Source: Pseudochrobactrum asaccharolyticum
GTDB lineage: Bacteria; Pseudomonadota; Alphaproteobacteria; Rhizobiales; Rhizobiaceae
Direction: 5' to 3'
Assembly: GCF_003314995.1 (NCBI RefSeq)
Contig: NZ_QNRH01000001.1
Span: 372,001 to 436,000, forward strand
DNA: 64,000 nt
The position numbers and the translations under genes were made by a program. Below, piece after piece: positions 23,973-26,281 of the stretch. Positions within the stretch are counted from its first letter, which is position 1. The number at the start of each line of letters is the position of its first letter. The notes under the pieces are model-generated. The model ran no database searches. It worked only from the letters and a program-made list of their open reading frames with translations, and was not told where the DNA came from.

Positions 23973-25178
23973 TTAGAACGAACGCTGGAAGCGGATCATA
24001 CCCTGCCAAGCATCGTCGCCCTTAAGAACCGACTTGTTGTCGCTCCATTTGGTGTAGGATACTTCTGGAGTAATTGTGAAGCCTGGAACCAGCTGGTAAG
24101 CTACGTTTGCAGTTGCTGCGAAGGTTTTTGCATCTTCGTAAGCGAGCTGCACGTTGAAGGTTGCTTTGTCGGTAGCTTTGAATTTCGCGCCACCCCAAAC
24201 AGCCCAATCGCCACCCCATGTGCCGTAGAAGCTGTCTACGATACGAACGCCGCGCTGTACGCCATCAACTGTGTAAGCATATGCGTAATGATCGTTGTTC
24301 GACTTGTAGCCGCCCTGTACCCATACGGAGAACTGTTCAGTTACGTTTACATCGAGACGTACTTTACCAGCCCATTCTTCGTTCTGTGCATCGTAAGCAG
24401 CAACACCAACGATCGAACCCCAAGCCTGTTCAAATTTCAGACCACCAACGATATGTGGTGTGTAGTCATCAATTTTAACGCCTTTGGTTTTGAAGTCTTT
24501 GTTATCAAAGCCTACATATGTCGCGCCAGCATCAGCATCGCCTGTGCCACCCTGTTCAAGAGCGATCATAGCCGAGAAGCCATTGCCGCCTGTGAATGTG
24601 TAGCTGATGGCGTTGGTGCGGTAGCCGCCACCGAGGATTACGTCGTCGTTCATTACGTCGCCGTAGTAACCTGGGAAGGTTACGAATGCGGATTCGTCAA
24701 GACCAACGCGCAGACCGCCGAGCTGGATGTAGCCGTAACGCAGCGAGCCGGAAGAACCAGCATCTTTGCCGTTTTCGTACTGGAAGCGAAGATCAGCATA
24801 TGTCTTCAGTGTGCCGAGTTCAGTTTCAGACGCTGTTGTGAAGCGCAGAGCGAAACGGGACATGAAGTTGTAGGTGTCGCGTTTTTTGTTTGTCAGGTCG
24901 CCAATGAAATCTTTGTTGGCAACAGCATCACGAACTGCACGGTCGTTTGCACGAGCGTATACGTTGTCGCCGCCTTTGATGTCAGCGCGAACATAACCGC
25001 CGATGCGCAGGCATGTTTCTGTGCCTGGAATGTAGAAGTAGCCAGCGCCGTATGCATCGCAAACGCGTACATATTCAACAGCTTCTGGTTCTGGTGCAAC
25101 GATGGCGTCGGCAGCCTGAGCGCCGGATACTGCAACGAGAGCTGCAGCGGAGCCGAGAAGAAGGCTCTTAATGTTCAT
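23973..25178 (-). CDS. omp2: Omp2-type porin (Porin_2 family), copy 1
   Basis: A trimeric outer-membrane beta-barrel that lets small solutes in. 401 residues, with a signal peptide (cleavage AQA/AD, residue 22), the conserved start VRVCDAYGAGYFYIPGTETCLRI with Cys40 and Cys56, alternating strands, and C-terminal GMIRFQRSF ending in Phe as needed for barrel assembly. It is paired head to head with copy 2 at 26105. The first 59 codons and the ribosome-site region are identical in DNA, and later barrel strands are also shared. Brucella omp2b/omp2a have this arrangement and are known to exchange sequence. The surface loops differ between copies. Which copy equals omp2a or omp2b cannot be decided here. 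Confidence 0.95.
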   Translation of the reverse strand: MNIKSLLLGSAAALVAVSGAQAADAIVAPEPEAVEYVRVCDAYGAGYFYIPGTETCLRIGGYVRADIKGGDNVYARANDRAVRDAVANKDFIGDLTNKKRDTYNFMSRFALRFTTASETELGTLKTYADLRFQYENGKDAGSSGSLRYGYIQLGGLRVGLDESAFVTFPGYYGDVMNDDVILGGGYRTNAISYTFTGGNGFSAMIALEQGGTGDADAGATYVGFDNKDFKTKGVKIDDYTPHIVGGLKFEQAWGSIVGVAAYDAQNEEWAGKVRLDVNVTEQFSVWVQGGYKSNNDHYAYAYTVDGVQRGVRIVDSFYGTWGGDWAVWGGAKFKATDKATFNVQLAYEDAKTFAATANVAYQLVPGFTITPEVSYTKWSDNKSVLKGDDAWQGMIRFQRSF

Positions 25179-25194
25179 TTCTGACCTCCAGTCA
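25002..25194 (-). repeat. 193-bp inverted repeat, left arm
   Basis: An exact reverse complement of 26089-26281 by direct reading. It covers TGACTGGAGGTCAGAA before the ATG and the first 59 codons of the leftward porin. Sequence diverges at once on either side (25195 upstream, 25001 downstream). Confidence 0.9.
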
Positions 25195-25828
25195 AAGTTT
25201 TAAATGGGTCTGGGCATTTTATTTTGGCTGAAGGACAACCTGCCCCCATCCCCTTGGGTGAAAAAGTCGCTACCGAAGCGCTCCTTCTTCTGTCCCCAAG
25301 ATACTCAGGCTCAGTTTTGTTGCAACACTGAAAACGCATAAGTAGGGAGTGAGTTGTTGCTATCGGTATATCGTGTTGCAGAAAAGACACGAAACTCGGC
25401 CTAGGCTGTGGATTTCATTTATGTTTTGTTTATAAACGTTAAAGGAAATTAACCTGAATTTGCGGGCTTTTCAGCCTTTTTATGCAAATCATAGTGCGCA
25501 AATCATCGCGAAGCAGCTCTGCCCGCATATATAGCGCGATCAGATTTCGAGAGACGATAATGCTGCAAAGGCAGCAAATTAGACGCTTTGTTTGCCGAAA
25601 AGATTCGCCTCGGTGGATAAGAGGCGCATTTCATTGATTCCTGACTTTGATTCTTTGAAAAAGAGCCAACGTTGTCCATAGCGTATATATATGCAGGCTT
25701 AATAATCGCATAAAACTATCAGAATTAGGCTGCTTTTTCACGATACGCTGTTGATGATGCATATTTTTTTGCACTTTACGCGTAAAGTGCTTGAACTCCT
25801 GATTATTACCGGCTATTGCGCCTTTACC
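25195..25828. other. Porin upstream region between the inverted repeats
   Basis: Long leader and promoter region of the leftward porin. TGCAACAC at 25321-25328 and GTGTTGCA at 25373-25380 are exact inverted copies that could form a leader stem. Two GATTC sites occur near 25635-25655. A perfect palindrome lies at 25771-25790. No ORF with a ribosome site is seen. Confidence 0.5.
25771..25790. promoter_or_regulatory. 20-bp perfect palindrome
   Basis: GCACTTTACG followed directly by its reverse complement CGTAAAGTGC, with no spacer. It lies 38 bp before tRNA-Ser and inside the segment bounded by the porin inverted repeats. A dimeric repressor operator or a recombinase site are both possible; neither is shown. 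Confidence 0.6.
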
Positions 25829-25918
25829 GGAGAGGTGGCCGAGTGGTCGAAGGCGCTCCCCTGCTAAGGGAGTATACCCGGAAGGGTATCGTGGGTTCGA
25901 ATCCCATCCTCTCCGCCA
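25829..25918 (+). tRNA. tRNA-Ser (anticodon GCT)
   Basis: A 90-base class-II tRNA. The acceptor stem GGAGAGG pairs with CCTCTCC, followed by encoded G-CCA. The anticodon loop CTGCTAA has GCT at 25863-25865 on a TCCCC/GGGGA-type stem. A long variable arm (TACCCGGAAGGGTA) and a T arm GGGTTCGAATCCC are present. It reads AGC/AGT codons. It lies between the two porins, inside the inverted-repeat interval. Confidence 0.97.
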
Positions 25919-26088
25919 TAATTTAAAAATACCCGCAAACCGGCAGATTTTCTGACCGGTTTTTTTGTTGTTTTGCGTGGTTTTATTGCCCCGATTTGGC
26001 GTGCTTTTTTCGACTTTTGGAAAATTTTAATTTAAAAAATTTTGTAACATGTTGAATTTATATGATTTTTTATCATCCTTAATGTTTC

Positions 26089-26281
26089 TGACTGGAGGTC
26101 AGAAATGAACATTAAGAGCCTTCTTCTCGGCTCCGCTGCAGCTCTCGTTGCAGTATCCGGCGCTCAGGCTGCCGACGCCATCGTTGCACCAGAACCAGAA
26201 GCTGTTGAATATGTACGCGTTTGCGATGCATACGGCGCTGGCTACTTCTACATTCCAGGCACAGAAACATGCCTGCGCATC
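26089..26281 (+). repeat. 193-bp inverted repeat, right arm
   Basis: Exact reverse complement of 25002-25194. It contains the ribosome site GGAGG, the ATG and the first 59 codons of the rightward porin. 894 bp separate the arms. Confidence 0.9.

Follow-up and report, generated by a model that had tools for sequence, protein, structure and literature searches.

Why should two divergent porin genes begin with exactly the same bases, in opposite directions, around a stretch whose two promoter regions are unlike each other? The question is raised by a pair of Porin_2 genes, porA and porB, of Pseudochrobactrum asaccharolyticum (Rhizobiaceae; assembly GCF_003314995.1, 4.65 Mb in 39 contigs), which lies in a 64,000-nt stretch of contig NZ_QNRH01000001.1 (positions 372,001 to 436,000), hereafter the window. 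The segment between the two genes has been inverted repeatedly during evolution, and inverted sites, paired porins and a neighbouring gene for a tyrosine recombinase, here called int, go together across the family. We consider it probable that these parts make up a recombinase-run, site-specific inversion switch that chooses between the two porins. In coordinates of the window the parts are as follows.

25002..25194, minus strand: left arm, a 193-bp perfect inverted copy
26089..26281, plus strand: right arm
25195..26088: invertible segment, 894 bp, with both promoter regions and tRNA-Ser; reversed in relatives
23973..25178, minus strand: porin A (porA), Porin_2, 401 aa; open reading frame, PF02530 E=2e-108; the int-distal porin, joined to leader P1 in the assembly
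26105..27274, plus strand: porin B (porB), Porin_2, 389 aa; open reading frame, PF02530 E=2.3e-111; joined to leader P2 in the assembly
25182..25193, minus strand: putative recombination site GACTGGAGGTCA before porA, with the dyad GAC-TGGAG-GTC around the Shine-Dalgarno (SD) sequence
26090..26101, plus strand: putative recombination site GACTGGAGGTCA before porB
25194..25217, minus strand: leader P1 (CAGACCCATTTAAAACTTT...), of a type also present at single-porin loci without int
26066..26089, plus strand: leader P2, poorly conserved except for about 6 nt adjoining the site
27556..28485, plus strand: tyrosine recombinase int, 309 aa, the proposed invertase, downstream of porB; PF00589 E=1.5e-27
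25829..25918, plus strand: tRNA-Ser(GCT), within the segment
22882..23715, minus strand: flank anchor on the porA side; no Pfam match, presumably an HhH protein
28931..29290, plus strand: DUF423, flank anchor on the int side
29419..31539, minus strand: lytic transglycosylase (SLT), flank anchor

The preliminary description of this locus, made from the window's sequence, had reported perfect inverted arms of 193 bp, set 894 bp apart at the two porin genes, and recomputation reproduced them exactly (25002-25194 and 26089-26281). With mismatches only at left-arm positions 24993, 25000 and 25001, the arms extend to 207 nt (24988-25194 / 26089-26295). The identical stretch begins just upstream of the SD sequence and runs into both genes, taking in, as had also been stated, the ribosome-site region and the first 59 codons (177 identical bases); beyond it, starting at residue 63, the two proteins share 194 of 306 aligned residues. 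This identity is not a matter of chance, the arms being the homologous 5' ends of two genes. Two features had been overlooked, namely the int gene at 27556-28485 and the coincidence of the inner edge of arm identity with a short dyad around the ribosome-binding site. A palindrome had been pointed out as well, and a perfect 20-mer does lie upstream of tRNA-Ser (25771-25790), but among five Pseudochrobactrum loci only the window and L040 carry it, and it was set aside as a functional part since it looks incidental. A consensus promoter scan returned one promoter-like site, against a mean of 1.1 in shuffles.

The segment had been proposed to turn over, with its orientation in related genomes as a check. 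Neighbouring genes served as anchors for scoring (the porA-side gene and the lytic transglycosylase, and on the int side the recombinase and DUF423), and the state was then read from the porin that bears leader P1 and from the direction of the tRNA. State U is that of the window, with P1 joined to porA, and in state F P1 is joined to porB. The sample consists of 120 int loci picked by hand from the int matches, matches close to the start of a contig and a number of weaker or lower-listed ones being omitted; 13 of the 120 are cut by a contig end and 107 are usable. The orientation set comprises 94 divergent pairs, each from a distinct genome, and leaves out 17 named loci that repeat fetched genomes, 11 convergent pairs, the 13 cut loci and seven loci with fewer than two inverted sites.

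By leader P1, 77 of these pairs are in state U and 17 in state F, and of the 68 loci with tRNA-Ser inside the segment, 66 have it pointing as the leader predicts. Both states occur within eight of 28 genera, 20 genera having at least two loci, and in genus g52 three further genomes, outside the 94, add one locus in state U and two in state F. L042, from a close relative in Pseudochrobactrum, is collinear with the window in its outer flanks and reversed in its inner segment, so that P1 stands before porB. The inner segment is likewise reversed between collinear flanks in L231 as compared with L224, which are the closest opposite-state pair by their flanks (91-95% identical), in L215 as compared with L220, and in others, and the recombinase tree requires at least 11 changes of orientation. 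The relatives thus bear out the proposed inversion, which has recurred in the course of evolution. The record that holds L042 (JAHREI010000009.1) is titled Bacillus subtilis SK6B4 and groups with Pseudochrobactrum in the genes compared. A candidate porin swap in an evolved strain, Ensifer adhaerens W2-B9 set against W2-B, was discarded, a single base differing in a stretch of 12,861 bp.

These orientations also bear on the other explanation of the identical arms that had been offered, gene conversion, which would homogenise the arms with no inversion. Conversion between omp2a and omp2b is documented in the part of the Brucella source available (PMC7050475). In the present set the partner in the same genome is the nearest sequence for 92 of 188 arms and for 60 of 186 porin bodies. 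Conversion may therefore help to keep the arms alike, but it cannot turn a tRNA and two leaders, and the reversed segments between collinear flanks, together with the 17 F loci of 94, rule it out as the sole cause and leave that explanation next to no probability. Slow change contributes too, as the porB arm of L040 equals that of the window over 190 nt; arm identity accordingly stems both from slow change of the signal-peptide region and from the within-genome exchange seen in the 92 arms and 60 bodies.

The second line of evidence concerns the recombinase and its distribution. The int product belongs to the tyrosine recombinase family (PF00589, 96.9 bits against a cut-off of 27.1), and residues R175, K198, H256, R259, H282 and Y291, which we take to be its catalytic R-K-H-R-H-Y set, are invariant in 18 aligned homologues and kept in 138-142 of 142 extracted frames. 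It falls short of the XerC/XerD equivalog cut-offs (85.6 against 335.15 bits for TIGR02224; 92.7 against 329.6 bits for TIGR02225) and of the integron integrase model TIGR02249 (64.9 against 265 bits), which sets it apart from the IntI type, and it gives weak, below-cut-off matches to FimB/FimE-type profiles (NF007371, E=5e-10; NF007370, E=5e-7). With E<=1e-60 as the threshold, homologues of it are found in 138 of 394 genomes of the family and in 45 of 109 genera, named carriers including Sinorhizobium, Mesorhizobium, Phyllobacterium and Brucella/Ochrobactrum records; an order-level search of 297 genomes gave one match outside the family (G481).

At 100 of the 107 uncut int loci GACTGGAGGTCA occurs as an inverted pair, mapping to porin starts or close to them. 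Preceding ATGAA, the motif is present in 299 of the 394 genomes, and its arrangement goes with the presence of the recombinase. Among the 138 genomes with int, 105 hold sites in both orientations, one holds two in the same direction, 11 a single site and 21 none; the corresponding figures for the 256 genomes that lack int are 17, 36, 129 and 74 (Fisher p ~2e-21 for both orientations against same direction, relatedness being ignored). The 17 exceptions comprise six nearby inverted pairs, three genomes with a site at a contig end and eight whose sites are distant or on separate contigs. Genus g17 offers the converse case: of its 35 genomes, four lack any int match at 1e-40, and G401, as a fifth, shows only a 38% match elsewhere. 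Four of these five were mapped (L353-L356), each showing one site and a single P1 porin adjoining the tRNA; the remaining one, G411 (72% complete), lacks a site. The recombinase is thus linked with inverted sites and with paired porins, and the linkage suggests that int may catalyse the inversion. L377 and L378, where inverted porin pairs lie beside a decayed recombinase gene, amount to a natural test of enzyme loss.

Where the exchange would take place is suggested by the limits of identity. A set of 122 site pairs was selected for an exact 12-mer GACTGGAGGTCA at both starts (17 of the 122 being second copies of the same genomes), so the presence of the 12-mer is given and the informative part is where identity stops. 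Outward from the site exact identity runs for 12 to 420 nt, and inward it continues beyond the 12-mer for a median of 2 and a maximum of 7 nt. The spacing from SD to ATG is equal in both members of 93 of the 94 pairs. P2 leaders are unlike each other save for about 6 bases adjoining the dyad, and there they mirror the outer half-site (0.65 over 6 nt; mean 0.29 and maximum 0.43 at other offsets); the P2 motif is present in 67 of 94 pairs, from which the motif itself was read off. The dyad overlapping the SD sequence is the candidate recombination site. A role of the dyad as a conserved RNA hairpin is weakened by the 49-nt P1 leader of the window, a single sequence, which folds no better than its shuffles (z -0.11).

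The leaders themselves differ, as the preliminary description had noted for the two promoter regions. Over 200 nt upstream, with one locus for each of 28 genera, mean identity is 0.73 among P1 regions, 0.60 among P2 regions and 0.58 between P1 and P2. P1, with the conserved leader CAGACCC...AACTTTGAC, is the better conserved and is of the type found at most mapped single-porin loci, and for both reasons we infer that it is the main and presumably strong porin promoter. A segment bounded by inverted sites and present in both orientations among relatives has the makings of an invertible promoter, the promoter function being suggested by position and by the conserved leader.

The following mechanism can be envisaged. 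P1 would drive whichever of the divergent porins is joined to it. Int would exchange strands at two inverted quasi-palindromes, about RWTYYTGAC-TGGAG-GTCAGAAAT, that overlap the ribosome-binding site of each porin; the 894-bp segment would turn, and P1 would move from one porin to the other. Neither orientation would damage the proteins, since start codon, signal peptide and the first 59 codons are alike in the two arms. Exchange along the two porin genes, by homologous recombination or conversion, is probable too; it would keep the arms alike and explain why porin bodies are not always in place. Inversion, biased or regulated, would then go on in living populations and act as a live switch of expression.

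Several results weigh against such a switch, at least in its simplest form, and those on its speed and freedom come from the same orientation set. The states are biased (77 U against 17 F); all 21 scored loci of genus g17 are U; and on the recombinase tree 500 shuffles of the labels cost 12-17 changes, 15.9 on average and never as few as 11, which means that orientation keeps a phylogenetic memory and that flips are recurrent, not free. The near-identical Sinorhizobium strains L320-L322 were searched for a second orientation and all three proved to be in one state. Taken together, bias, uniformity of g17 and phylogenetic memory indicate that this is no fast unbiased switch, or else that one state dominates in cultures. 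In L198 and L202 the tRNA-Ser(GCT) is turned and the P1 leader is not, the tRNA having probably been re-oriented by a separate event. The mirror symmetry of the P2 leaders is not distinguishable in P1, where the same test gave 0.50 over 6 nt and up to 0.59 at other offsets. Nor is the dyad confined to genomes with int: 129 of those without have one site, and it stands at single porins too, which means that it predates the switch or serves a further purpose. Part of the same evidence tells against an assembly artefact, a random joining of the segment across identical arms. Contig ends do cut 13 of the 120 loci on the upstream side of int, and some of the cuts (L229, L301) fall only a few bases from the site. 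F states, however, are found in assemblies of few contigs, one of a single contig (G181, locus L254) and one of five (G346, locus L223), and short-read assembly does not explain them; random joining would also not make orientation follow the tree more than chance allows, nor make the 21 loci of g17 alike. An artefact is very improbable as the source of the two states.

More serious is the behaviour of the porin bodies, which is the main evidence against a pure site-specific switch. In some pairs they keep their place as such a switch would have it: bodies of L224 and L231 are 88 and 91% identical in place and 69 and 70% crosswise, those of L220 and L215 82 and 87% in place against 74 and 73% crosswise, and L220, L213, L223 and L216 all favour bodies in place when set against L215. 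Yet of the 24 F-U comparisons within mixed genera only 13 favour bodies in place; the other 11 are crosswise or undecided, several by narrow margins. L199 and L200 are clearly crosswise (90% porB to porA), as are L305 and L304, and L042 against the window leans slightly towards crosswise (138 against 137 in summed per cent). Some events, then, also moved or replaced porin bodies, as recombination along homologous genes or later conversion would do. In L199 against L200 and in L305 against L304 it looks as if a stretch longer than the promoter segment had been turned or exchanged.

This leads to a rival reading: now and then the segment is inverted by RecA-type homologous recombination, acting either on the arms or on more outward parts of the porin genes, and int is a passenger or has another role. 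The 11 crosswise or undecided comparisons speak for it, and so do the exact arms, which are long (median 127.5 nt in the 94 pairs) and longer in F than in U loci (medians 166 and 99 nt). Arms at F loci are long or near-exact: L230 has 24 exact nt but one mismatch in 200, and the least alike, L224, differs after 88 exact nt; arm length thus cannot rule against homologous recombination. In its favour, too, four of the six nearby inverted pairs in genomes without int show no match to the recombinase at 1e-20; the other two, G216 and G374, keep a decayed copy. On the other side, int accompanies inverted site pairs in 28 genera, its orthologue is absent from the four g17 genomes with a single porin, and inward of the dyad identity is lost within 7 nt. 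Exact arms are moreover shorter, 16-80 nt, in the six pairs whose int is missing or decayed (Mann-Whitney p=0.0009), although the measure is sensitive to single changes (L373 has two differences in 190) and the six genomes are not independent. We regard homologous recombination as an unlikely explanation of the whole, and the recombinase-run switch, with homologous exchange at its side, as the better one.

Porins, sites and int also occur in other arrangements. At 11 loci (e.g., L243, L250, L306, L309) the sites face oppositely, the porins are convergent and int lies between them; inversion there would swap the porins between two outside promoters, with the same outcome from another geometry. 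L309 and L310 hold two recombinase genes between two convergent porins, one per porin. Plasmids of Sinorhizobium, Ensifer and Pseudorhizobium bear porin-int units whose fetched surroundings include no partner porin; at L317-L319, L324, L328, L331, L333 and L335-L337, on symbiotic or other plasmids, one porin is annotated or mapped, and L317, L324 and L325 bear a site variant, GTCTGGAGGTCA. In Sinorhizobium meliloti Ak57 (L323, 2404-8044) two tandem porin-int units face a third porin (por-int-por-int-por), with three SD-dyad sites, two direct and one inverted, an array that could possibly serve as a porin shufflon; its int points the other way relative to SLT than in L320.

From such loci comes a further alternative, that int mainly moves porin-int units into and out of SD sites, a cassette-like capture of a resident promoter of which inversion is a by-product whenever a unit is inserted inverted. 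The partnerless plasmid units, the Ak57 array, the patchy distribution of int (45 of 109 genera) and the mapped int-less loci, which mostly hold one P1-type porin, all agree with it. However, apart from the two direct sites of Ak57, no unit was seen as a circle or between paired direct sites, and the conserved inverted geometry and the flips within genera fit a retained switch. Capture as the main role of int is unlikely but not negligible, and it is compatible with the inversion switch; a window-like arrangement may have arisen when a porin-int unit landed beside a resident P1 porin. It is tempting to extend the switch to a widespread module with its site built into the SD sequence, in which promoterless porin-int units, moving between plasmids and chromosomes, land inverted beside a resident porin and trade its promoter to and fro, Brucella omp2 being a late, locked descendant. 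We put this forward tentatively, as plausible though short of probable.

Porins set the permeability of the outer membrane to nutrients, antibiotics and phages. If the inversion switch is real, it would give a heritable, reversible choice of porin and, with the recombinase in about a third of the sampled family genomes (138 of 394), a general mechanism of variation, one that stays out of sight in annotation as a couple of porins and an "integrase". With the recombination site placed over the ribosome-binding site, porin genes could be exchanged without disturbing translation.

Promoter inversion between surface-protein genes is of a kind already known, and its recombinase-linked porin version is apparently undescribed. 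In the part of a genome-wide inversion screen available, 0 of 4 samples are given as positive in Alphaproteobacteria (PMC5903667). The open-licence literature searched gave no description of recombinase-linked porin inversion in this group. The sap locus of Campylobacter fetus comes close: a promoter segment turns over between homologous, divergently placed genes for surface proteins that have their 5' ends in common, the 5' repeats being larger and the process mainly homologous recombination. The sap inversion is named in the available parts of two sources (PMC5634654, PMC11852207). Unlike sap, the present pair adjoins a tyrosine recombinase gene, its cargo is a porin and its segment carries a tRNA. 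Also similar is the slpA/slpB inversion of Lactobacillus acidophilus, with two divergent genes of identical 5' ends, one expressed and one silent; these are S-layer genes of another phylum, likened here by description and not by sequence comparison. As the available part of one source has it, the Xer1 recombinase of Mycoplasma agalactiae switches the member of the Vpma surface-protein family that lies behind a unique promoter (PMC5634654); Vpma is a multi-gene lipoprotein family, whereas the present system has two porins and a putative site overlapping the SD sequence. FimB/FimE, described in the accessible part of PMC9993118, are tyrosine recombinases that invert the fimS promoter segment, an ON/OFF control of one operon, in contrast to the choice between two porins proposed here.

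Closest in gene content are omp2a and omp2b of Brucella, two divergent, related porin genes about 830 bp apart that have exchanged sequence (PMC7050475). The window's divergent Porin_2 pair with shared 5' sequence is of this type, similar pairs are found at the named Brucella/Ochrobactrum loci, and classical Brucella was compared by description. In the part of that source available the exchange is described as gene conversion, with no mention of a recombinase gene or of inversion, and only omp2b is shown to be expressed (PMC7050475). The 944-kb inversion of Brucella suis was considered and set aside as an unrelated rearrangement. Expression of omp2b alone would fit one dominant promoter, and the inversion switch, if true, would supply a testable reason why omp2-type genes come in pairs of which one copy is reported silent.

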